Source of the DNA: an uncultured Solirubrobacteraceae bacterium
Lineage (GTDB): Bacteria > Actinomycetota > Thermoleophilia > Solirubrobacterales > Solirubrobacteraceae
DNA length: 64,000 bases
Assembly: GCA_902806205.1 (NCBI GenBank)
Contig: CADCVR010000053.1
Location: 1 to 64,000, forward strand
Direction of reading: 5' to 3'
How positions within the stretch are numbered: position 1 is the first letter of the stretch; each line of letters opens with the position of its first letter. The position numbers were made by a program, and so were the translations under genes. Below the pieces are notes generated by a model. The model had not been told where the DNA came from. It did not search any database and was given only the letters and a program-made list of their open reading frames with translations. Of this stretch, positions 10,561 through 61,167 are shown piece after piece.

Positions 10561-11398
10561 CCTCGGGGTCTCCCAGCGTCGCCCAGAGGTGCATGACCGC
10601 GTAGGAGCGCCAGGGCCGCCAGCGCTCCGCGCGCTCGGGCTCCGCGCCGATGCGCGCGAGGCCGCGCCGTACGCCGACGTCCGTCGGCAGCCACGCGTCG
10701 GGATCCCCGAGCGCGCGCATCGCGACGTAGTCCGCCGTCCACGGCCCGATGCCCTTGAGCGCGAGCAAGCCGGCGCGCGCGGTCTCGCGGTCGGCGCCTG
10801 CGCGCAGGTCCAGGGCCCCGTCCTCGATCGCCGCCGCCGCGCGGGTCAGCGCGGCACCGCGGGCGCGCGGCATCCCGAAGGCCTCCGGCGGGAGCGCGGC
10901 GAGCGTCGCCGCGTCGGGGAAGAGGTGGGTCAGCTCGCCGTCGGGCCGGGGCAGCGGCGTTCCGTGCGCGGCCACGAGGCGGCCGGCGAGCGTCCGTGCG
11001 CCCGCGACGGAGACCTGCTGGCCGATGATCGCGCGCGTGACGAGCTCCGTCGGGTCCACGTGCCCCGGACGGCGCAGGCCCGGCCGCCGTGCGACGAGCC
11101 CGGAGAGGAGCCGATCCGTCGCGAGGTGTGCGTCGATGACGGCCGGGTCGGCGTCGAGGTCGAGCAGGTGGCGGCAGGTTGACACCGCCTCGTCGAGGTC
11201 GTCCGGGTGGACGTCGAGCCCTGCCCCCACGCCGCCCTCGTCGGGCCAGAGGCTCATGACGCCCGGGCCGCGCGCAAGCCGCAGCGTCCGGCGGTACACA
11301 CCGTCCGGCGTCAGCTCTTCGACGCCCGTGACCGCCCGCGCTCCGAGGAACGCGAGCAGGCCCGGGACGTCGACGGGCTTGCGCGTGGTGAGCAGCAA
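10553..11398 (-). CDS. alkA: DNA-3-methyladenine glycosylase II, AlkA type
   Basis: This 281-residue protein has an AlkA N-terminal domain (PVDVPGLLAFLGARAVTGVE at the start). Its helix-hairpin-helix and Gly/Pro-Asp loop follow: ALKGIGPWTADYVAMRALG, then LPTDVGV with the catalytic Asp. VTRAIIGQQVSVAGART is also typical. It excises alkylated bases in base-excision repair. The only start in the frame before an upstream stop at 11420 is TTG at 11398. Some AlkA proteins are fused to Ada; this one is not. Confidence 0.88.
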   Translation of the reverse strand: MLLTTRKPVDVPGLLAFLGARAVTGVEELTPDGVYRRTLRLARGPGVMSLWPDEGGVGAGLDVHPDDLDEAVSTCRHLLDLDADPAVIDAHLATDRLLSGLVARRPGLRRPGHVDPTELVTRAIIGQQVSVAGARTLAGRLVAAHGTPLPRPDGELTHLFPDAATLAALPPEAFGMPRARGAALTRAAAAIEDGALDLRAGADRETARAGLLALKGIGPWTADYVAMRALGDPDAWLPTDVGVRRGLARIGAEPERAERWRPWRSYAVMHLWATLGDPEGP

Positions 11399-11419
11399 GC
11401 CGCCGCGGCGAGCCGGGGC

Positions 11420-11929
11420 TCAGACCGGGCGATCCCGGTGGATCGCGGGGTCGACCGCCGCGGCGCGATCGTCGCGCCGATCGAAGTCCCGCACGGAGTC
11501 GTCGCCTCGGTCGCCGTCCCGCGGATCGGCCTCGTGAACCGTTCGCGCCCGCCGGTCGTCCTCTCCGGACAGGTCGATCTCGCCGTCGGCCATCCCCTGC
11601 TCGGTGCGGCTCGCAGTCGACCGGGAGACCTCGGCCTCCGCGCGCACCGCCGCGGCCTTCCGCTCGGCCATCTCGACCTCGGCACGCCGCGCCTCGGCCT
11701 GCCGTTCGGCCAGCTCGACCTCGGCGCGCTGTGCCTCGGCACGGTGCTCGATCTCCTGCGCGCGGGCGAGCTTGTCGTCGGCCTCGGCGTGGTGGCGGTC
11801 GGCCGCCAGCTGACGCCGGCCCTGCAACTGCTTCTCCTCGCGTGCGGCACGCAGGCGGGGCAGCGCCACGAGCAGCGCAACGAGGACGATCACGACGACC
11901 GCGATCAGCACGATGATGCTGGTGTCCAT
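11420..11929 (-). CDS. Membrane-anchored coiled-coil protein of unknown function
   Basis: The protein is 169 residues from an ATG with AAAGGA upstream. One hydrophobic helix (residues 3-24, rich in Ile/Val/Leu) is followed by about 90 residues of Arg/Glu/Ala-rich heptads (AEVELAERQAEARRAE and similar), a likely coiled coil. The tail is highly charged with many Asp-Arg pairs. The topology suggests a short membrane anchor with a cytoplasmic coiled coil, but no known family is recognised. It is divergent from purF, and its stop lies about 20 bases upstream of the alkA start. Confidence 0.7.
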   Translation of the reverse strand: MDTSIIVLIAVVVIVLVALLVALPRLRAAREEKQLQGRRQLAADRHHAEADDKLARAQEIEHRAEAQRAEVELAERQAEARRAEVEMAERKAAAVRAEAEVSRSTASRTEQGMADGEIDLSGEDDRRARTVHEADPRDGDRGDDSVRDFDRRDDRAAAVDPAIHRDRPV

Positions 11930-12047
11930 GGGATTCCTTTCGCTCTGGGTTGTCCACTCCCATGCCCTCGGGCCGTCGCGGGAAACGCCCGCCGGACCCA
12001 TTGCTAGCCTTCGTTGCGTCGCCGGGCCCGGCCCGCCGGCAGCTCTC

Positions 12048-13529
12048 ATGCCTCCCGCCTCCCCCCTCCTCGACGACCGCGAGGGTCCTCGCGACGAGTG
12101 CGGCGTGTTCGGGGTCTACGGACCTGACCACGACGTCTCCCGCCTGGCCTACTACGCGCTTCACGCGCTGCAGCACCGCGGGCAAGAGTCCGCGGGCATC
12201 GCGGCCTGCGACACGGGCGGCTACATCATCACCCAGCGCGCGATGGGCCTGGTCAACCAGGTCTTCAAGGAGCATGACCTCCGCGCGCTCGGTGGTGACC
12301 TCGCCATCGGCCACGTGCGCTACTCGACCACGGGCGCCAACGAGTGGGAGAACTCGCAGCCCGTGCACCGCAGCGCCGGCTCGGGCGGCAACCGCCGGGA
12401 GCTCGCGCTCGCCCACAACGGGAACCTCATCAACGCGATAGAGCTGCACTCCTCGCTGCGCGAGCAGGGCGTGTCGTTCACCTCGACGTCGGATTCGGAG
12501 ATCATCGCCGCGGCGCTCTCCGCGCACCCGGCGGGCACGATCGAGGACGCCGTGGCCGCCGTCGTCCCGACCCTCAAGGGCGCGTTCTCCACCGTGGTGA
12601 TGACGAAGGACCGCGTCGTCGCCTTCCGCGACCCCGCCGGGATCCGGCCGCTGGTGCTCGGCCAGCTCGGGGATCGCTACTGCGTTGCGAGCGAGTCGTG
12701 CGCCTTCGACATCATCGGCGCCACCCGCCTTCGAGACGTGCGTCCGGGGGAGATGGTCTCCATCTCCGAGCAGGGCCTCGAGTCGCGCATGGTCAGTGGC
12801 GGCGAGCGCGAGGCGTTCTGCGTCTTCGAGTACATCTACTTCGCGCGGCCCGACTCGCGGATGAACGGGACGGTCCTGCAGGCCGCCCGCGGGCGCATGG
12901 GGGAGAGCCTCGCGCGCGAGGCGCCCGCGCCGGACGCCGACCTCGTCATCCCCGTGCCCGACTCCGGCATCCCGGCCGCGCGGGGTTTCGCCCGCGTCTC
13001 GGGTCTGCCGCAGGACGACGGGCTGATCAAGAACCGCTACGTCGCGCGCACGTTCATCCAGCCCGGGCACGAGCTCAGGAAGCACGGCCTGCGGTTGAAG
13101 TTCAACCCGCTGCCGGAGATCGTCGGCGGCAAGCGCCTCGTGGTCGTCGACGACTCGATCGTGCGCGGCAACACGACGCGCCAGATCGTGCGGATGCTGC
13201 GCGACGCGGGCGCGGCGGAAGTCCACATGCGGATCTCCGCGCCGCCGATCAAGCACCCGTGCCACTACGGGGTCGACATGAGCACCCGCGAGGAGATGGT
13301 CGCCCATGGACGCACGGTCGAGGAGATCGCGGAGCATCTGGGCTGCGACACGCTCGCCTATCTGTCGATGAAGGGCGTCTACGACGCGGTACGCGGGTCG
13401 GCCGATCGGCACTGCGACGCCTGCTTCACCGGCAACTATCCCTTGGCGGGGACGACCGACGCGAACGACAAGTTCGCCCTCGAGCGGTCGCTGCCCGTGA
13501 TCCCCGCGGGCACGCCGACGCTCGCCTGA
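12048..13529 (+). CDS. purF: Amidophosphoribosyltransferase
   Basis: The 493-residue enzyme makes 5-phosphoribosylamine from PRPP and glutamine, the first step of purine synthesis. The N-terminal nucleophile Cys is in DECGVFGVYG near residue 17, preceded by a short propeptide as in processed PurF proteins. ALQHRGQESAGIA and IGHVRYSTTG belong to the glutaminase domain, and VVVDDSIVRGNTT is the PRPP-binding loop. The C-terminal CYGVDM/HCDAC-type cysteines resemble the iron-sulfur type of PurF. ATG at 12048 places the Cys correctly; the longer open frame upstream does not. Confidence 0.95.
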   Translation: MPPASPLLDDREGPRDECGVFGVYGPDHDVSRLAYYALHALQHRGQESAGIAACDTGGYIITQRAMGLVNQVFKEHDLRALGGDLAIGHVRYSTTGANEWENSQPVHRSAGSGGNRRELALAHNGNLINAIELHSSLREQGVSFTSTSDSEIIAAALSAHPAGTIEDAVAAVVPTLKGAFSTVVMTKDRVVAFRDPAGIRPLVLGQLGDRYCVASESCAFDIIGATRLRDVRPGEMVSISEQGLESRMVSGGEREAFCVFEYIYFARPDSRMNGTVLQAARGRMGESLAREAPAPDADLVIPVPDSGIPAARGFARVSGLPQDDGLIKNRYVARTFIQPGHELRKHGLRLKFNPLPEIVGGKRLVVVDDSIVRGNTTRQIVRMLRDAGAAEVHMRISAPPIKHPCHYGVDMSTREEMVAHGRTVEEIAEHLGCDTLAYLSMKGVYDAVRGSADRHCDACFTGNYPLAGTTDANDKFALERSLPVIPAGTPTLA

Positions 13530-13628
13530 GACCCCGGTTCGTCACGGGAGCGCGACGGACTGCGAAGAAGCTGCGCACCGATCGCGCCAGGGCACCCCTG
13601 CGCCCCGCCGGGCGCCGATCGCGCCCGT

Positions 13629-13634
13629 TATGGT
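13629..13634 (+). promoter_or_regulatory. -10-like element at the recQ start
   Basis: TATGGT overlaps the first annotated ATG of recQ and lies 7 bases before an in-frame TTG at 13642. This suggests that translation may really begin at that TTG on a leaderless message. Confidence 0.35.
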
Positions 13635-15483
13635 CGCCCTCTTGTCCGCGTCCGACCCACACGCCGCCCTCCGCGAGCACTTCGGCTTCTCGGCCTTCCG
13701 TCCCGGTCAGGAGCAGGCGGTTCGAGCCGCGCTCGACGGCCGCGACGTGCTCGTCGTCATGCCGACGGGCGCCGGCAAGTCGCTCTGCTACCAACTCCCG
13801 GCCCTCATGCGCGACGACCTGACGCTCGTGGTCTCGCCGCTCGTCTCGCTCATGGAGGACCAGGTGCAGGCGCTCGCGCGCCGCGTGCCCGGGTGCGTCG
13901 CCCTGGTCAACTCCCAGCAGGATCGCGGAGCCAACGACGCCGCGGTCGCCGCGGCCGCCCGCGGCGACGTGCGGGTGCTCTACGTCGCGCCCGAGCGGTT
14001 CTCGTCACCGGGCTTCGCACGGGCGCTCAAGGCTGCCGGTGTCGGCTTGTTCGTCGTCGACGAGGCGCACTGCGTCTCGCAGTGGGGGCACGACTTCCGG
14101 CCGGACTACTTCCGCCTGGCCGACGCGGCACGCTGGCTCGGGGCCAGTGCGATCGTCGCCTCGACGGCGACCGCCACGCCGTCGGTCGCAGCCGACATCG
14201 TCGCGCGCCTCGGGCTGCGAACGCCCGTCCGCGTCTCGACGGGCTTCGACCGGCCGAACCTCTCCTGGGCGGTCGTGCCGGGCACGCCGCGCACCAGGGA
14301 GCCTCAGCTCGTCGCGGCCCTTCGGGTTCCCGGCGCCACACCCGCGATCGTGTACACGGGGACGCGGCGCGCGGCCGATTGCCTCGCGGAGAAGCTCTCG
14401 GAAGCGCTCTGCAGGCCGGTGCTCGCGTACCACGCGGGGCTTCGCCGAGCGGCGCGCGCCGAGGCACAGCGGCGCTTCATGGCGGGCGAAGTCGATGTCG
14501 TCGTCGCCACGAACGCCTTCGGCATGGGCGTCGACAAGGCCGACGTGCGCACGGTCGTGCACGCGACGGTCCCGTCGTCGGTCGAGGCGTACTACCAGGA
14601 GGCCGGGCGCGCCGGCCGCGACGGGGCGCCGGCCCAAGCGCTGCTGCTCGCCGCGGTCGAGGACAAGGGGCTGCACGTCTTCTTCGTCCGGCGGGCGGCG
14701 GTCAGCGAGCAGCACATCGAGCGCGTCGCGCTGCGCCTCCAGGCCGCGGCGGGCGGGCCGCCCGCCCCCGGGCAAGAGCCGGCGCCGACCTTCGACGTCG
14801 CGGTCGGGGAACTCGTCGGCTGCTCGGGCGGTGCGTCGGTCGCCGGCGACGCGGACCGGATCAAGGCGGTCGTCGGGGCGCTCGCGCGGGCGGGGGTCAT
14901 CCAGCCCGCCCCGGCCGCGGTCGACCGCGTGCGGGGCCGGCTGCTCACCGCCTATGACGCGCGCGCTCGGGTGCTCTGCCGCACGATCGCGGGGGACGTG
15001 CAGCGCGCGCGGTGGCGTCAGTACCGGGCGATCTGGGGGTTCGTCGAGAGCGACCGCTGTCGCCGCGCGATGGTGCTGGCGCACTTCGGCGACGAGGCGT
15101 CGCCGGCACCGACGGTCGGCTGCTGCGACGTCTGCGATTCCACGCTGATCCCGGAGGCGCCAATCGGCGCGGGCGTGCCGCGGGAGCTGAGGACGACCCC
15201 GGGGCTCGACCTGCGCGGAGCGATCGTCGCAGTCGTCGACGGAGCCGAGCCGCAGATCGGGCGTGCTCGGATCGTCGAGGTGCTGCGCGGGAGCTCTTCG
15301 AAGGAGATCCTGCGCCACCGCTACGACGGGCTGCCCGGGTACGCCACCTTTGCGCAGCTCACCACCGGGGAGATCCTCGCCGCCGTCGACGCGCTCGTCC
15401 TGGCCGGCCGCCTCGTCTCGACGGGCGGGCCGGACCCGAAGCTTCGTGTCGACGCCGAGGCGCAGGAGCGGCTGGTCGCGTGA
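13630..15483 (+). CDS. recQ: ATP-dependent DNA helicase RecQ
   Basis: The 617-residue RecQ helicase unwinds DNA 3' to 5' in recombination and repair. FGFSAFRPGQEQAV is motif 0, MPTGAGKSLCYQLP is motif I, VVDEAHCVSQWGHDFRP is motif II with the aromatic-rich loop, STATAT is motif III and QEAGRAGRDG is motif VI. A zinc site (CRRA...CCDVCD) follows near residues 480-505, and the C-terminal tail holds a short winged-helix/HRDC-like part. ATG at 13630 is the first start, but the TTG at 13642 fits a leaderless promoter. Its stop overlaps the purN GTG. Confidence 0.92.
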   Translation: MVALLSASDPHAALREHFGFSAFRPGQEQAVRAALDGRDVLVVMPTGAGKSLCYQLPALMRDDLTLVVSPLVSLMEDQVQALARRVPGCVALVNSQQDRGANDAAVAAAARGDVRVLYVAPERFSSPGFARALKAAGVGLFVVDEAHCVSQWGHDFRPDYFRLADAARWLGASAIVASTATATPSVAADIVARLGLRTPVRVSTGFDRPNLSWAVVPGTPRTREPQLVAALRVPGATPAIVYTGTRRAADCLAEKLSEALCRPVLAYHAGLRRAARAEAQRRFMAGEVDVVVATNAFGMGVDKADVRTVVHATVPSSVEAYYQEAGRAGRDGAPAQALLLAAVEDKGLHVFFVRRAAVSEQHIERVALRLQAAAGGPPAPGQEPAPTFDVAVGELVGCSGGASVAGDADRIKAVVGALARAGVIQPAPAAVDRVRGRLLTAYDARARVLCRTIAGDVQRARWRQYRAIWGFVESDRCRRAMVLAHFGDEASPAPTVGCCDVCDSTLIPEAPIGAGVPRELRTTPGLDLRGAIVAVVDGAEPQIGRARIVEVLRGSSSKEILRHRYDGLPGYATFAQLTTGEILAAVDALVLAGRLVSTGGPDPKLRVDAEAQERLVA

Positions 15484-16088
15484 GGATCGCCGTGCTCGCT
15501 TCGGGGGAGGGGACGAACCTCCAGGCGCTGATCGACGAGTTGCACGCGCCGGGCGGCGCGGTCGAGCTCGTGGCCGTCGCGGCGGACAGGGTCGATGCGC
15601 CCGCGCTCGGGCGGGCGCAGGCCGCCGGTATCGACACCGAAGCGTTCCCGCGGGAACGCTTCTCCGACCGCCCCGCCCGCGACGCGGCGATCACCGCATG
15701 GCTGGAAGCGCACGGGGTCCAGCTTGTCGTCCTCGCGGGCTACATGGCGCTGCTCGACGCCGCCTTCGTGCGGCGCTGGGCGGGGAGCCTGGTCAACGTC
15801 CATCCGTCGCTGCTGCCCGCCTTCCCCGGCATGGGCGCGATCGAGCAGGCGCTCGACTACGGGGCCCCCCTGTTCGGCGTCACCGTGCACCTCGTCGACG
15901 AGGGGATCGACACCGGCCCGATCCTGCTGCAGGAGGCGGCGGCGCTGCCCGCGGCCAGGACGCCGGAGGAGGTGCACGCCGCGCTGCGGCCGATCGAGCA
16001 TCGCCTGCTCTGCGCGGCCGTGCGCGCGTTCGCCGACGGCGGAGTCCGCCCTGACCCCGGGCATCCGCGACGGTGGCTCGTGGGCTAG
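15480..16088 (+). CDS. purN: Phosphoribosylglycinamide formyltransferase
   Basis: The 202-residue enzyme transfers a formyl group from 10-formyl-THF to GAR. VLASGEGTNLQALID is the phosphate-binding start, VNVHPSLLPAFPG carries the catalytic Asn and His, and HLVDEGIDTGPI carries the catalytic Asp. It starts at a GTG overlapping the recQ stop as GTGA, so it is probably translationally coupled to recQ, an unusual partner. Confidence 0.93.
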   Translation: MRIAVLASGEGTNLQALIDELHAPGGAVELVAVAADRVDAPALGRAQAAGIDTEAFPRERFSDRPARDAAITAWLEAHGVQLVVLAGYMALLDAAFVRRWAGSLVNVHPSLLPAFPGMGAIEQALDYGAPLFGVTVHLVDEGIDTGPILLQEAAALPAARTPEEVHAALRPIEHRLLCAAVRAFADGGVRPDPGHPRRWLVG

Positions 16089-45143: not shown

Positions 45144-46553
45144 TCACTCGTCATGCGTGGAGATCGCGGGGTCGTCGACCGCTGCGGCGCCGAAGACCTT
45201 GGAGAACCGTGCTGCGGTCATGGTGGCGGGACGGGCGTGGAGGTAGCGCTCGGTCGTCGAGATCCGGAAGTGGCCCATCGCGGCCTTGATCGTCACGAGG
45301 TCCTCGCCGCCTGCGGCCAGCAGGCTGCCGAAGGTGTGTCTCAGGCCGTGCCACGGCAGGACGGGGACGCCGGCGGCCAACTGGGCGCGGCGGTAGCGGC
45401 GGCGTAGGGCGGACTCCTCGACGCGGCCACCGGTCCGTGAGCAGATCACGTACTCGTCGGGGCCGATGAAGTCCGCGCGGCGCGAGAGGCGGTCGAGGCT
45501 AGCCAAGGCGGCGTCGGCGAGTGGCACCTCGCGGGTGCGGCCGGACTTGGTGGAGTCGACGAGCGTGCCGCCGCTGACGGTTCGCCGGACGGTGAGCTTG
45601 GCGGCGGCGAAGTTCACGTCGCGCCAGCGCAGCGCGCGCAGCTCGCCGGCGCGTAGGCCCGTGTAGGCGGCGAGGCGCACCGCCTCGGCGTCTTGGGCGT
45701 CCTCGAGCGCGGCGGCGTTGCGCTCGTGCTCCTGCACGCCGACTGAGCGGGGGTCGCGGTGGAGACCGGCGCCGAGCGTGCGGGCGAGCGCCTCGACCTG
45801 CTCGACGCAGTAATAGTCGCGCGTGGCCGGTGGTGCTTCTCGGCGGCGGTCGGCATCGCGCACCGGGTTCTCAGGCAGCGCGAACGTCGAGGCGCGGCAG
45901 CCGTAGGCGAAGATCGCGTCCATCACGTTGCGTGCCTTGTTCACGGTCCGGGGCCCGGCGCCCGAGGCGGCGACCTTGGAGAGCGCCGCCTCTATTTGTC
46001 GCGTGGTGACCGTGGCCGCAGGCAGGTCGCCGAGTGCGCCCATCACGACGCCGGCCGAGGCGCCGCCGCCGCGCTTGTGCGGGGTACCGGGCTCGGCGAG
46101 CACGTAGCGGCGAGCACGTAGCGGCGAGCACGTAGCGGCGAGCACGTAGCGGCGAGCACGTAGCGGCGAGCACGTAGCGGTGGTCGCGCAGCGTCGACGG
46201 CTTGACGCCCTTGACCGTCGCCAACCACTCAAGCCACGCCTCGGTGACCTCGCGGAACGTCGGCGCGGTGCGGCCCGCACGCCGCTCGATCTCGCGCAGC
46301 TCGAGCTCGACGGTGCGCACCAGCGCCTCCGCGGCCACGTGCGCCGCGCGCGCATCGAGGTGTCCGACCTTGGGGCGTCCTGGACGCTTGGTCCACGCGC
46401 CGTCGGCGGACTGGTCCATCCACGCGGGGCCGACGCGGCGCTTGAGCTTGCGGCGCCCGCGCCCGGCTTGGAGTGGCGCCACGCGACCTCCCAGCACGCG
46501 CCCGCGGCGGCGCCCCGGACTGAGAGGTGGAGGACGGGTGCGGCGTCGGCCAT
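45144..46553 (-). pseudogene. Tyrosine integrase with two mutually compensating frameshifts
   Basis: An ATG at 46553 with GGAGG five bases upstream opens a 469-codon frame. Its start (CWEVAWRHSKPG) and its second half are integrase-like: TGLRAGELRALRW (catalytic Arg), LPWHGLRHTFGSLL (His and Arg), MGHFRISTTERYLH (His and Tyr). Between about 46470 and 46100 this frame is Ser/Arg-rich nonsense, while another frame encodes the expected core-binding domain (TFREVTEAWLEWLATVKG, KPSTLRDHRYVLA). One missing base near 46470 and five extra copies of a 14-bp repeat (70 bases) cancel each other. Product likely inactive. Confidence 0.8.
46094..46180 (+). repeat. 14-bp tandem repeat (6.2 copies) inside the integrase gene
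   Basis: The unit GAGCACGTAGCGGC is repeated six times with period 14. One unit belongs to the ancestral gene (it encodes RYVLA on the minus strand); five extra units add 70 bases. Only copy numbers 1, 4, 7 and so on would keep the original frame across the tract. Confidence 0.9.
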
Positions 46554-55676: not shown

Positions 55677-57575
55677 ATGCCTGCCCCCGACTCCCGCCGA
55701 CCGCCTGCGCGGATCCTGATCGAGCGCCCTCGGCCCAGCGTCGACTGCGGGCGTTATCCCGCCAAGGCGTGCGTGGGTGACGAGGTGCCCGTCAGCGCGG
55801 ACGTCCTGCGCGACGGCCACGAGGTGCTGCGGGCCGTCGTGCGCTTCCGCGCTCCGGGGGAGAAGGGCTGGGCCGAGGCGCCGCTGGCACCCTACGACGC
55901 CCACGCCGGCGGCAACGGCTTCGAGGGCGCGTTCCCGGTCGACCGGCAGGGGCGCTGGAGCTTCGTCTTCGAGGCGTGGGCCGACACGTTCGGTTCCTGG
56001 CGAACGGAGGTGACGCGCAAGCTCGACGCTCAGCAGGAGGATCTTTCGAGCGAGCTGCTCGAGGGCAGGGCGATCGTCGAGAGCACCGTCGCGCGCGCCA
56101 AGGGCGCCGATCGCAAGCGCCTGACCGTCGCGCTGACCGAGTGGACGCTCGACGAGGCGATCTCGGTCGACGTCGCCCAGGCCGTCATGCGCTGGCCCGA
56201 CCGCTCCCAGGCGACGCGCTCGGACGTCCTCGAGATGGAGGTCGACCGCGCGCGCGCCCGCTACGGCGCCTGGTACGAGCTCTTCCCCCGCTCCTGGGGC
56301 GGTCTGAAGGGCACCACCGCCGTGGTTCCGCAGCTCGCGGCGCTCGGCTTCGACGTCCTCTACCTGCCGCCGATCCACCCCATCGGCGTCAAGAACCGCA
56401 AGGGCCGCAACAACGCGGTGACCGCTGCTGCGAAGGACCCGGGCTCGCCGTGGGCGATCGGCTCGCCCGACGGCGGGCACACCGCGATCCACCCCCAGCT
56501 CGGGACCCAGGAGGACTTCGACGCGCTCGTCACGGCCTGCGGCGAGCACGGGATGGACCTCGCGCTGGACTTCGCGATCCAGTGCTCGGCCGACCACCCG
56601 TGGCTGGCCGAGCACCCCGACTGGTTCTCCCAGCGCCCCGACGGGACGCTGAAGTACGCCGAGAACCCGCCGAAGAAGTACCAGGACATCTACAACGTCA
56701 ACTGGGACACCGACGACTGGCGCGGCCTCTGGCAGGCGCTTCTGGAGGTCGTGCAGCACTGGGTGGGCAAGGGCGTCCGCGTCTTCCGCGTCGACAACCC
56801 GCACACGAAGCCCTTCGGCTTCTGGGAGTGGCTCATCAAGGAGATCCGCGACGAGCAACCCGACGTGGTGTTCCTCGCCGAAGCGTTCACCAAGGCGGCG
56901 GTCATGCGGGCGCTGGCGAAGATCGGCTTCAGCCAGAGCTACACGTACTTCACCTGGAAGACCTCCCGCCAGGAGCTCACCGACTACGTCGTGGAGCTTG
57001 CCACGAGCGGCATGCAGGACTACTACCGCCCGAACTTCTTCGCCAACACGCCGGACATCCTGGGGGAGGATCTCCAGCACGGCGGGCCCCCGGCCTTTCA
57101 CGCGCGCCTCGTGCTCGCCGCGACGCTCTCGCCGACCTACGGCATCTACTCGGGCTTCGAGCGCTTCGAGAACGTGCCGGTCAAGCCGGGCTCGGAGGAG
57201 TACCTCGACTCGGAGAAGTACGAGGCCAAGGAGCGCCGCCTCGACGGTCCGCTGCTGCCCGTCGTCCACAAGCTCAACACGCTCCGCCGCGCGCACCCTG
57301 CGCTGCAGCAGCTGGCCGACGTCCGCTTCCTCGGCACGGAGAACGACCAGCTCATCGCCTACCTCAAGCGCCACGGCGGCGATACGGTCATCACGGTGGT
57401 CAACCTCGACCCGTTCGCCGTGCACGAAGGGATCGCCGAGGTGCCCTACGAGAGCGGGCTGCCGGCCACCTACGAGGTCCGCGACGGCCTCACCGGCGAG
57501 CAGTTCACCTGGTACGTCGGGCGCAACTTCGTCCGTCTGAACCCGGGTGGTGCCCACGTCCTCGAGGTTCTCTGA
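55677..57575 (+). CDS. glgE: Maltosyltransferase GlgE (maltose-1-phosphate dependent)
   Basis: The 632-residue protein has an N-terminal beta-sandwich domain, then a GH13_3 barrel. The entry motif YELFPRSWGGLKG is near residue 200, IHPIGVKNRKGRNN near residue 232, nucleophile Asp in VFRVDNPHTKPFGFWEW near residue 376, acid/base Glu in VFLAEAFTK near residue 402, and YGIYSGFE with EEYLDSEKYE near residue 490-510. GlgE transfers maltose from maltose 1-phosphate to growing alpha-1,4-glucan. With treS, maltokinase and glgB downstream this completes the GlgE pathway. Confidence 0.95.
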   Translation: MPAPDSRRPPARILIERPRPSVDCGRYPAKACVGDEVPVSADVLRDGHEVLRAVVRFRAPGEKGWAEAPLAPYDAHAGGNGFEGAFPVDRQGRWSFVFEAWADTFGSWRTEVTRKLDAQQEDLSSELLEGRAIVESTVARAKGADRKRLTVALTEWTLDEAISVDVAQAVMRWPDRSQATRSDVLEMEVDRARARYGAWYELFPRSWGGLKGTTAVVPQLAALGFDVLYLPPIHPIGVKNRKGRNNAVTAAAKDPGSPWAIGSPDGGHTAIHPQLGTQEDFDALVTACGEHGMDLALDFAIQCSADHPWLAEHPDWFSQRPDGTLKYAENPPKKYQDIYNVNWDTDDWRGLWQALLEVVQHWVGKGVRVFRVDNPHTKPFGFWEWLIKEIRDEQPDVVFLAEAFTKAAVMRALAKIGFSQSYTYFTWKTSRQELTDYVVELATSGMQDYYRPNFFANTPDILGEDLQHGGPPAFHARLVLAATLSPTYGIYSGFERFENVPVKPGSEEYLDSEKYEAKERRLDGPLLPVVHKLNTLRRAHPALQQLADVRFLGTENDQLIAYLKRHGGDTVITVVNLDPFAVHEGIAEVPYESGLPATYEVRDGLTGEQFTWYVGRNFVRLNPGGAHVLEVL

Positions 57576-57619
57576 AAGACCGGTGACGCCGAGGCCGGCC
57601 TGCCTGCGCGCGGCCGGCC

Positions 57620-58828
57620 TCAGCCGCCGACCTGCACGCCGTGCACGCCGCCGCGACCGGCGCGCCCGGGGGATCGTCGGGGAACGGCGATCGCCACGGC
57701 GATCGCGCCGACGACGAGCGTGGCCTGCAGTACGACCATCAGCGCACGCGTGCCGCCCTCCGGATCCTGGACGGCGCCCGTGAGCATGCCGGCGAGGACG
57801 CCGCCGACGAGGCCCGCCAGACGGCAGTCGCCGGCGTAGGCCTCCGGGGAGACGCGGGCGAACGAGCGGCCGAGCACCGCGCCGACGACGCCCAGGACGG
57901 CCCCCTGCAGCAGCGACTCGTGGCCGGTCAGCCCGCCGAGGTCCTTCAGCGCGACGTAGAGGACGGCCCCCAGGCCACCCGCGACCGCGCCGCCGCCGAG
58001 CCCGAGGAGCAGGGGGCCCAGGACGCCTCCGTCGCGGCTCGCGCGCCGGATCACCACCGCACCGGCGAAGACGGCGAACCCCACGACGAGGGCCCAGATG
58101 ACGGCGCGCTCGGGCGCGAGGTACTGCAGGCGTTCGCCGGCGCCGGCGAGGCGGTCGGCGAACGCACTCGGCGACGCGAACGCGGGACGCGCCGCCTTGA
58201 GTTCGGCGGTGGCCAGCGCCGCGACGTAGGCGGCAAGCGCCCCGGCCGCGACCATCGCACCCCCCGCGGCGACGAGGCGCCGGGCCGGCTCGGAGCTGCG
58301 GGGGATCGCCGGGCGCTCGTCGTCCTGCAGTCGGCGCCGTTCGTGTTCGATGGTGGACTCGCCCAGCACGCTGCGCAGTCGTCGGCACAGCACCTCGACG
58401 TCGTAGTCCCACCGCGTGTCGGTCAGCTCGGCGGCGTTGCGGCGCGAGAGCGCGCGCAGGCCTTCGGGGAGCTCGTCTTCACCGGGCATCCGCGCGCCGT
58501 CGACGAGCACGGGGATCACGTGCACGTCTTGGCGCTGGAGTGCACGCTCGATCTCGAGGCGCACGAGGTCGTCCGCATTGTCCAGGCGGCGACGACCGTC
58601 GGCGGTCGTGGCGCTCGCCCAGCGCGGGCCGATCACGGCGATGCAGACCTCGCAGGCGTCCATGACGCGCTCGATGTGCTCGACGTAGTCGACGCCGGGC
58701 TCGATCGCGACGTCGCGGAACACCCGCTCCTCGCCGAAGCGGTCGGCCACGTCGCCGTGGAGTTGGCGGGCCCAGCCCGCGGAGTCCGATCGCCGGTAGT
58801 TGATGAAGATGCGGGCGCTGCTGGTCAT
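57620..58828 (-). CDS. TIR-domain protein with multi-helix membrane domain
   Basis: In this 402-residue protein residues 4-150 are a bacterial TIR domain: RIFINYRRSDSAGWARQL, VFRDVAIEPGVDYVE, VCIAVIGPRWA, and DDLVRLEIERAL with a Glu at the place of the NADase catalytic Glu. A charged linker leads to about six transmembrane helices (residues 190-395). Bacterial TIR enzymes cleave NAD or make cyclic ADP-ribose signals in anti-phage immunity. Its ATG overlaps the stop of the DUF4231 gene by four bases, so the two are translationally coupled. They sit on the opposite strand between glgE and treS. Confidence 0.85.
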   Translation of the reverse strand: MTSSARIFINYRRSDSAGWARQLHGDVADRFGEERVFRDVAIEPGVDYVEHIERVMDACEVCIAVIGPRWASATTADGRRRLDNADDLVRLEIERALQRQDVHVIPVLVDGARMPGEDELPEGLRALSRRNAAELTDTRWDYDVEVLCRRLRSVLGESTIEHERRRLQDDERPAIPRSSEPARRLVAAGGAMVAAGALAAYVAALATAELKAARPAFASPSAFADRLAGAGERLQYLAPERAVIWALVVGFAVFAGAVVIRRASRDGGVLGPLLLGLGGGAVAGGLGAVLYVALKDLGGLTGHESLLQGAVLGVVGAVLGRSFARVSPEAYAGDCRLAGLVGGVLAGMLTGAVQDPEGGTRALMVVLQATLVVGAIAVAIAVPRRSPGRAGRGGVHGVQVGG

Positions 58829-59319
58829 CTCTGGACCCCCGTGCGCTGGATGGTCTCGCGCTGCTCGTTGACCCAGGCCGCGTGCTCCGTCGAGACGCGC
58901 GCCTCGACGCGCTCGGCGAGGACGGCGTCGCGCTCGATGCCGGCGCGGTACGGGCCGGCGTGGGAGAGGTAGAGGAACTTCTCGTGCTTGAGGGCCTCGG
59001 CGGTGGCGCGGTAGCCCGTCCAGTTCTGCTGATACTGAAAGAGCTGCTGCAGCCCCTCGAGCACGACGATCACCGCGCCGAGGCAGCCGGCGACCGCTGC
59101 CTCGGCACCGAGCGCGGCGACGACGGGGATCGAGGCGGCGACGACGAGTTGCAGCACCTTGAGCACGAGAAACCAGCGCTTGCAGTGCGCGCTCGCGTGG
59201 TCGTACCAGGCGAGCTGATCCTCCAGCCGCTCCCAGGCGGCCGAGCCGGGCGGCCCACGGGTCGGACCCGGCGGCGCCAGCGCCCCTGGGATCTGGACCT
59301 CGACCTTTCCTCCTGCCAT
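58825..59319 (-). CDS. DUF4231 (SLATT-type) two-helix membrane protein
   Basis: The protein is 164 residues from ATG 59319, with GAGGAGG upstream. The pattern LAWYDHASAHCKRWFLVLKV, two adjacent transmembrane helices (about residues 48-85), LEGLQQLFQYQQNWTGYRATAE and LKHEKFLYLSHAGPY is that of DUF4231, a member of the SLATT superfamily. SLATT proteins are predicted pore-forming effectors that act with nucleotide-signal or NAD-based defence modules. Here the partner is a TIR protein, read from the same transcript. The C-terminal helix (VEARVSTEHAAWVNEQRE) is typical. Confidence 0.85.
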   Translation of the reverse strand: MAGGKVEVQIPGALAPPGPTRGPPGSAAWERLEDQLAWYDHASAHCKRWFLVLKVLQLVVAASIPVVAALGAEAAVAGCLGAVIVVLEGLQQLFQYQQNWTGYRATAEALKHEKFLYLSHAGPYRAGIERDAVLAERVEARVSTEHAAWVNEQRETIQRTGVQR

Positions 59320-59439
59320 CGGCGACCTCCTCGTGCGAGTCCTACCGCCTCCGCGCTGATTCGTCAAACGCGCAGTTCTCCACAACGGTGCACACCGCAC
59401 ACGAGTGGATCGGCCGCCTGATGGATAGATCAAGACCCT

Positions 59440-61167
59440 GTGACCTCCGACGAGCAACCCGTGGGCGCACCGGCCGCCACGCATGCCCCGCACCACTGGT
59501 TCGAGTCCGAGCCGCTCTGGTTCAAGACGGCCGTCTTCTACGAGATCCACCTGCGGGGGTTCTTCGACGGCAACGGCGACGGCTCGGGCGACTTCCGCGG
59601 ACTGACGGAGAAGCTCGACTACCTCCAGTGGCTCGGAGTGGACTGCATCTGGCTGCTGCCGATGTACGAGAGCCCGCTGCGTGACGGCGGCTACGACATC
59701 GCCGACTTCTACAAGGTGCACGCCGACTACGGGACGATGGACGACGTCAAGGTGTTCATCGACGCCGCCCACGAGCGGGGCATCCGGGTGATCGCCGACC
59801 TCGTGATGAACCACACGTCGTCGGACCACGCGTGGTTCCAGGAGTCACGGAAGGGCAAGGACAACGCCAAGTCCGACTACTACGTCTGGTCGGACACCGA
59901 CGACCGCTACCCCGACGCGCGGATCATCTTCACCGACACGGAGCCCTCCAACTGGACGTGGGACCCCGTGCGCGGCCAGTACTTCTGGCATCGCTTCTTC
60001 TCCCACCAGCCCGATCTCAACTACGAGAACGAGGAGGTGCACGAGGCGATGCTCGACGCCCTGCGCTTCTGGCTGGACCTCGGCCTCGACGGCTTCCGCC
60101 TCGACGCGGTCCCCTACCTCTACGTCCGCGACGGGACCAACGGCGAGAACCTGCCGCAGACCCACGAGTTCCTCAAGAAGGTCCGCGCGACGGTGGATGC
60201 GGAGTACCCCGACAAGGTGCTCCTCGCCGAGGCGAACCAGTGGCCCGAGGACGTCGTGGAGTACTTCGGCGACGGCGACGAGTGCCACATGGCCTTCCAC
60301 TTCCCCGTGATGCCCCGCATGTTCATGGCGGTGCGCCGCGAGGAGGCCACGCCGATCTATGAGATCCTGCGCCGCACCCCGGACATCCCGGCGAACTGCC
60401 AGTGGGGTCTGTTCCTGCGCAACCACGACGAGCTGACCCTCGAGATGGTCACCGACGAGGAACGTGACTACATGTACACGGAGTACGCCAAGGACCCGCG
60501 GATGAAGCTCAACCTCGGCATCCGCCGGCGCCTGGCGCCGCTCTTGGACAACGGTCGTGACGAGATCGCGCTGATGACGGCGATCATGTTCTCCCTCCCG
60601 GGCTCACCGGTCCTCTACTACGGCGACGAGATCGCCATGGGCGACAACGTCTACCTCGGTGACCGCGACGGCGTGCGCACCCCGATGCAGTGGACCGGCG
60701 ACCGCAACGGCGGCTTCTCGCGCGCGGACTTCGCGCAGCTCTACGCGCCGCCGCTGATGGACCCGGTCTACGGCTACCAGGCGGTCAACGTCGAGGCGCA
60801 GCTGCGCACCTCCAACTCGCTGCTGCGCTGGCTTCAGCGGTTCATCGCGCTGCGCAAGGAGCACCCCGTGTTCGGCTTTGGCACCTACGAGCCGCTGGCG
60901 ACGAGCAACCATCGCATCTTCGCGCACGTGCGTCGCTACGAGGACGACCTCGTCCTCTGCGTCCACAACCTCGCGCGGACGGCGCAGGCCGTCGAGCTCG
61001 ACCTCGGGGAGTTCGAGGGCCGCTACCCCGAGGAGATGTTCGGCCGGGTGCGCTTCCCGCGCATCGGCCGGTGGCCGTACCTGCTCACGCTGGCGCCGCG
61101 CGGCTTCTTCTGGTTCGTGCTCACAACCCCCGAGGACGAGGGAGACCATCGCAATGGCCGCCGTTGA
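59440..61167 (+). CDS. treS: Trehalose synthase (maltose alpha-D-glucosyltransferase)
   Basis: The 575-residue GH13_16 enzyme has [19 protein letters not shown] near residue 34, [17 protein letters not shown] near residue 112, nucleophile Asp in [10 protein letters not shown] near residue 218, acid/base Glu in [12 protein letters not shown], and [12 protein letters not shown] near residue 327. It interconverts maltose and trehalose and in the GlgE pathway supplies maltose to the maltokinase. GTG start; no Shine-Dalgarno sequence. The maltokinase ATG lies 14 bases before its stop. Confidence 0.95.

Follow-up and report, generated by a model that had tools for sequence, protein, structure and literature searches.

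Two genes, encoding a DUF4231/SLATT membrane protein and a TIR protein with a membrane-spanning tail, are inserted between glgE and treS in the genome of an uncultured Solirubrobacteraceae bacterium. They lie in a stretch of 64 000 nucleotides (contig CADCVR010000053.1 of assembly GCA_902806205.1, positions 1 to 64 000), hereafter the window. That the pair is a defence cassette appears probable: the insertion site is empty in all 12 testable relatives, DUF4231 is lacking from seven other same-genus genomes, and all six intact SLATT genes of the class sample adjoin a TIR gene among differing neighbours. The fuller proposal of a horizontally acquired two-gene anti-phage cassette, in which a TIR signal would act on SLATT, is somewhat favoured on sequence, models and analogy together; the step from TIR signal to SLATT membrane effector, considered by itself, stands at about even chances. 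By analogy, the best reading of the pair is a Thoeris-like one, whereby TIR would make an NAD-derived signal and SLATT would perturb the membrane.

Both frames are open and form an operon on the minus strand. The first gene (58825..59319) encodes a two-transmembrane (TM) protein of 164 aa, the second (57620..58828) a TIR protein of 402 aa with a C-terminal TM region, and their stop and start codons overlap by 4 nt (58825..58828). Pfam places the first product in DUF4231 (PF14015, E = 5.7e-24; 85 bits versus a cut-off of 24.7), with SLATT_3 barely above its cut-off (26.5 versus 26.3) and SLATT_1 slightly below (24.5 versus 26.3). By this curated profile match and its two TM helices, the protein belongs to SLATT, which was reportedly defined by Burroughs et al. 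in 2015. The second product is a TIR_2 protein (PF13676, E = 1e-10). Hydropathy gives a single long run for the SLATT protein (residues 48-94; 59038..59178, minus strand), in which the structure model places both TM helices, and six TM stretches for the TIR protein (residues 184-384; 57677..58279, minus strand), modelled as about six helices at low confidence. Open reading frames, Pfam and hydropathy thereby bear out the sequence-only reading, which had described a two-TM DUF4231 protein and a TIR protein with about six TM helices in an operon with a four-base overlap. The home genome (3.38 Mb) has one DUF4231 match and one TIR_2 match, side by side; as this arrangement repeats in all six class genomes with an intact SLATT gene, the adjacency goes beyond chance.

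The TIR protein has the features of a catalytic-type TIR domain, namely a predicted TIR fold and an active-site Glu. Its model reaches block-mean pLDDT values of 81-97 over residues 11-150 (39-71 in the TM part), and the nearest solved fold is that of the animal NAD+ hydrolase SARM1 (Foldseek 7.2e-6; VIA Z 18.7, rmsd 1.8 over 135 residues), which differs in its domain architecture and is not a defence operon. In a profile alignment, Glu92 (codon 58553..58555, minus strand; the Glu of VRLEIERAL) falls opposite the Glu in DWVHKEIVTAL of SARM1, which we take to be the catalytic E642, in keeping with how entry 7cm7 is titled (E642A). All 10 aligned TIRs have this residue, the four that come from phages and a plasmid among them, as do all 15 TIR_2 domains. 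The initial remark that the TIR copy retains its Glu was therefore well founded, and homologues without it, which would have spoken for a housekeeping role, were not met in these alignments.

The model of the SLATT protein (pLDDT 88.9) consists of helices 27-69, 74-94, 96-118 and 130-160: the N-terminal one is long and continues as TM1, TM2 comes next, and two further helices follow. Five residues are invariant in 61 sequences (E108, L110, K111, E113 and W149), all in the helices after TM2, making these a plausible candidate for a ligand-binding side. Among solved structures, Foldseek gave the model no relative within E = 0.001, nor did a profile search within E = 1; against a viral library there was no match at 0.001, the best hits being weak and some of them to proteins named SLATT. 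We know of no ligand pocket in SLATT, which, together with the lack of a solved relative in these searches, weakens the proposed explanation. In its support stand the alignment of Glu92 with SARM1 E642, the Z of 18.7 and the position of the invariant SLATT residues.

Under the signal-effector reading, infection would activate the TIR domain, probably via oligomerization at the membrane, and the active enzyme would cleave NAD+ to yield an ADP-ribose-type product. Released beside the membrane, this product would bind the conserved helices after TM2 of SLATT, which would then cluster or open, so that the cell depolarizes and the infection is aborted. The TM tail of the TIR protein would hold enzyme and effector in one membrane and thus give the signal a short path.

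Several known systems favour such a step, by their published accounts as far as the available text goes. Thoeris TIRs make ADPR-type signals, and in type II His-ADPR leads to TM-macro oligomerization and membrane disturbance (PMC12948488, PMC11204291, PMC12847820); type II Thoeris, with its TM-macro ThsA, resembles the window in that a TIR enzyme gene adjoins a membrane effector gene. SLATT is a predicted pore in GTPase-centred systems that can contain TIR domains (PMC7159879). Deletion of SLATT abolishes defence by DRT10 (PMC12632851), a system of reverse transcriptase, ncRNA and SLATT that shares a SLATT-domain protein, whether or not of the DUF4231 family, with the window; the partner is a reverse transcriptase there and a TIR here. 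The AC1 locus of a P2-like phage, with TIR and TM-protein genes, protects Escherichia coli (Rousset et al. 2022, PMC9122126); it too has a TIR with separate TM-protein genes, but comprises three genes, and its TM proteins may or may not be SLATT.

The closest counterpart is the TIR-SLATT neighbourhood published for Firmicute phages, in which SLATT is predicted to be a membrane effector regulated by ADPr derivatives (Iyer et al. 2022, PMC9503650). In the phages examined here, the SLATT gene precedes the TIR gene as it does in the window, and the predicted logic is the same. However, the phage TIRs of this type belong to the ThsB Pfam class and, at 132-197 aa, are too short for a six-TM tail, whereas the window TIR, a chromosomal one, is of the TIR_2 class and has about six TM helices fused to it.

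Assignment to the established systems gave the following. The window has the defining feature of a TIR-SLATT pair, a SLATT gene adjoining a TIR gene. Thoeris by name was rejected, the partner having no ThsA effector feature (SIR2-SLOG, TM-macro or caspase-like). At E up to 0.1, Pfam found only DUF4231/SLATT in the SLATT protein, with no macro, SIR2, SLOG or caspase domain, and the TIR protein matched the PADLOC ThsB model partially and weakly (E = 1.5e-4) with no ThsB_TIR Pfam match at E up to 0.1. This position outside the ThsB Pfam type weakens the proposed explanation. No UG17 reverse transcriptase gene, as in DRT10, lies beside the pair, and the two-gene operon, flanked by GlgE and alpha-amylase, contains neither the CD-NTase of CBASS nor the pyrimidine cyclase of Pycsar. 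The statement that this is not a named system holds in so far as no PADLOC-DB 2.0.0 model matches the SLATT protein at E up to 10; it does not extend to the arrangement itself, TIR-SLATT neighbourhoods being already in print in the available text of PMC9503650. Literature searches, with most subscription papers outside their scope, gave no naming or test of a DUF4231-TIR pair among the matches listed.

Beyond the class, a SLATT profile retrieved 74 loci across bacteria and archaea, from many phyla. TIR was found in the flanking sequence of 52 of them by models partly built from the same loci, hence biased toward classes already seen; in 17 it was on the SLATT strand and no more than 300 nt away, and in 19 a ThsB-type TIR lay about 2380 nt downstream of SLATT. 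The flanks of the other 22, some of them short, contained no TIR. A Pfam check covering 10 of the 17 adjacent same-strand partners, chosen by eye as TIR-like, assigned all ten to TIR_2 or ThsB_TIR; the neighbour of the L092 SLATT gene had no Pfam match and that of L038 was a TGT. On a tree made by a quick method, with many weak branches and 11 of the 19 cassettes described below as rows, partner classes cluster but switch repeatedly (22 changes versus a shuffled mean of 45). These several changes of partner class suggest that one SLATT family has teamed up with different TIR classes.

Of 50 697 phage records, 33 carried a relative; every one of them bears a Staphylococcus, Streptococcus or Enterococcus name. 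In the four phages examined (L130, L131, L132 and L135), a ThsB-class TIR gene immediately follows SLATT. The two genes are separated by 16 nt in L135 and overlap by 4-7 nt in the other three, as they also do in L133. Such SLATT and ThsB-type TIR pairs occur on phages, a satellite and a plasmid, with integrase and repressor genes nearby. In Streptococcus phage Javan199 (L131, 3408-3803), the TIR gene after SLATT is unannotated in the record. Plasmid records gave four matches in 72 556; of two examined, the Staphylococcus one carries SLATT-TIR. In the other, of Halocatena marina, a DUF4231 gene (L134, 3971-4411) adjoins SAVED and type III-A CRISPR genes, and the 8.4 kb read carry no TIR annotation. 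Scans of IMG/VR gave two SLATT relatives, L126 and L127, whose TIR resembles the one in Staphylococcus phage SN10, and five TIR relatives, none with SLATT in the DNA at hand. The proposed search for co-occurrence thus had a positive outcome, the pairing recurring in several phyla, phages, satellites and plasmids. At five acidobacterial loci (L041, L068, L070, L087 and L092), SLATT follows a gene that resembles, by eye, a phage-type lysozyme, and in all of these except L041 a TIR_2 domain lies about 0.7-2.1 kb from SLATT.

The main rival to the signal-effector reading is NAD+ depletion by TIR with SLATT as regulator. TIR would then be the killer, a SARM1-like NADase, and SLATT a membrane sensor or brake, as in toxin-antitoxin-like or sensor-effector pairs. 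The closest solved fold and the retained catalytic Glu agree with this, and the translational coupling with SLATT first resembles co-produced regulator and toxin pairs. However, a single SLATT family combined with various TIR classes better fits a shared effector than a bespoke inhibitor, and the association of SLATT with a reverse transcriptase in DRT10 (in the available text) and of DUF4231 with SAVED and type III CRISPR genes is an effector-like position. Moreover, SLATT-free members of the TIR family exist in the class (in genome G118, and in four copies in G045), which is incompatible with a needed antitoxin. We regard this rival as unlikely. The SLATT-free TIRs, together with the 22 of 74 SLATT loci without a flanking TIR, weaken the signal-effector reading as well.

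A further arrangement emerged from the 74 loci. In 19 of them (L034, L038, L039, L040, L042, L043, L046-L051, L056, L057, L060, L064, L069, L073 and L076), five genes stand on one strand in the order SLATT, TGT-like, Ogg-HhH, QueC and ThsB TIR. Relatives of TGT, OGG and QueC were found in this order in 19 of 19 cassettes versus none of the 55 other SLATT loci; those 55 also lacked HsdM or HsdR relatives (type I restriction), which accompany 10 of the 19 cassettes. Domains were checked with Pfam in L038 and L048 (ThsB in these two of the 19) and restriction subunits in L048. The cassette TIR starts with MGG in all 19, 93-99 nt ahead of the TIR domain, as called by a start-choosing script that favoured starts followed by Gly; in L050 an upstream start was picked, with the MGG start at the usual place. 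The same start is present in both rhizobial plasmid cases (L141, 6273-6740; L142, 6266-6739), and in none of 11 ThsB-class TIRs outside cassettes, which have no in-frame start followed by GG.

In type IV CBASS, according to the available text of PMC11996544, QueC- and TGT-like enzymes attach deazaguanine to the CD-NTase N-terminus. The cassette carries the accessory set described there, with TIR in the position of the CD-NTase, and this analogy suggests that the MGG tail of the cassette TIR may be the target of deazaguanylation chemistry. Two papers on QueC contain no occurrence of TIR, SLATT, TGT or OGG. On an Agrobacterium plasmid (L142, 3584-8162), the gene for a TGT-matching protein annotated as TIR (perhaps a fusion) is followed, in one run, by a gene in the OGG position, QueC, a ThsB-like TIR, DUF4231 and a further TIR gene; in L141 a DUF4231 gene is nearby on the other strand.

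We tentatively propose, as a possibility that falls short of an even chance, that SLATT/DUF4231-TIR forms a class of its own, so far unnamed, within TIR immune signalling, with swappable TIRs. In the window lineage, the enzyme would be built into the membrane beside its effector, one membrane complex both making the signal and opening the pore with no diffusible messenger; mainly in proteobacteria, SLATT would instead be driven by a ThsB-like TIR whose N-terminal Gly is conjugated to 7-deazaguanine by QueC- and TGT-like enzymes, as is reported of the CD-NTase N-terminus in type IV CBASS.

The idea of TIR-SLATT is itself already in print; what is new here is that the partner is a SARM1-like TIR embedded in the membrane, that the pair is inserted into the chromosome in this class of actinobacteria, and that a single SLATT family has exchanged TIR classes. 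In several defence systems SLATT proteins are predicted to act as pores, and a minimal TIR-SLATT pair would make their opening testable with two genes and NAD+ chemistry. With a TIR fused to the membrane, local TIR signalling could be told apart from diffusible signalling. Judging by the related cassettes, the accessory enzymes of type IV CBASS may serve TIR signalling too, and this side finding of 19 cassettes may outweigh the window pair.

Within the class, the SLATT query matched 8 of 249 sampled genomes, the home genome included: six with an intact gene (G000, G190, G196, G169, G041 and G138), one with mere fragments of both genes, scored as a remnant (G103), and one (G132, E = 8.3e-4) that was unsupported by the 61-sequence profile and removed from the count. 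Each of the six intact SLATT genes adjoins a TIR gene of the same family on the same strand, among flanking genes that vary between genomes (neighbourhoods here and at the acidobacterial loci were called with a home-made gene caller). SLATT comes first with a 4-nt overlap in four of the six; G169 has a 3-nt gap and in G138 TIR is first. The 4-nt overlap recurs in L021, L022 and L024, and in L035, a seventh pair. Three loci of the wider survey apparently represent the same contigs as class genomes and are to be counted once (L032 and G190, L044 and G041, L086 and G138). In L024 (G041, 11170-15678), genes for a patatin-like phospholipase, a subtilase-domain protein and a metallo-beta-lactamase-fold protein stand in a row beside the pair. 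In a phylum sample, the TIR profile at 1e-25 matched 5 of 296 genomes, two of which (G271 and G424) have a distant SLATT about 1.2-1.4 kb away. Over seven pairs, SLATT and TIR pairwise identities are moderately correlated (r 0.60, permutation p 0.0375), and this moderate strength counts against the proposed explanation.

The TM tail is in frame in L035 and in five of the six class TIRs; in the sixth, that of G190, the reading frame stops before the tail and DNA resembling the TM part continues in another frame. The shortened frame of G190 and the fragments of G103 weaken the explanation, and they are also what would be expected of a mobile passenger of defence ancestry that is functionless here at present. 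This alternative is very improbable: both window frames are intact, and although overall identity to relatives is about 35-55%, the pair still has the active-site Glu and the signature residues of SLATT.

At the locus itself, the pair interrupts a cluster of housekeeping glucan genes on the opposite strand, as the sequence-only reading had it. The TIR gene is tail-to-tail with glgE (55773..57575, plus strand; Pfam) and the SLATT gene head-to-head with a trehalose-synthase-type alpha-amylase (59440..61167, plus strand; Alpha-amylase and Malt_amylase_C, the name TreS resting on gene order and length), downstream of which lies a maltokinase-like gene (maltokinase cap domain, Pfam). The empty-site test comprised 31 genomes (the home genome and 30 relatives), of which 13, the home genome included, matched treS with E no higher than 1e-200; the 18 without such a match fall outside the test. 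In all 12 other treS-bearing genomes, glgE and treS adjoin directly: their matched ends lie no more than about 125 nt apart, versus 1.86 kb in the window (57576..59439), and neither SLATT nor TIR is matched there. The closest relative (G252, L107), of the same genus, has a treS about 94% identical and is without the pair, and DUF4231 is absent from seven of seven other same-genus genomes, some of them incomplete. Strict conservation at the locus would have pointed to housekeeping; the outcome is the opposite, with an empty site and a patchy distribution (6 of the 249 class genomes have an intact SLATT gene, and the seven same-genus ones have no DUF4231). A housekeeping or envelope-stress pair without a phage role, for which the glgE-treS location and the lack of defence neighbours could be invoked, is most unlikely given the site empty in 12 of 12 relatives, on which a role tied to the glucan cluster was rejected, the absence of DUF4231 from seven other same-genus genomes, the other neighbours elsewhere, the strand opposite to the operon and the G103 remnant. 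Enrichment in defence islands, which had been put forward as a check, was not borne out, as the neighbours at the window locus are housekeeping genes; this too weakens the defence explanation.

The insertion ends show no clear target-site duplication, and near the pair neither a sigma-70-type promoter nor an intrinsic terminator was called; these absences carry little weight. An inverted repeat (57588..57624; I16, 13-nt arms, 92%) between the convergent ends of glgE and the TIR gene is possibly their shared terminator, with no intrinsic terminator call there. About 11.5 kb off the pair, the window also encodes a phage-type tyrosine integrase (45144-46103, minus strand; PF00589, E = 1.6e-28).
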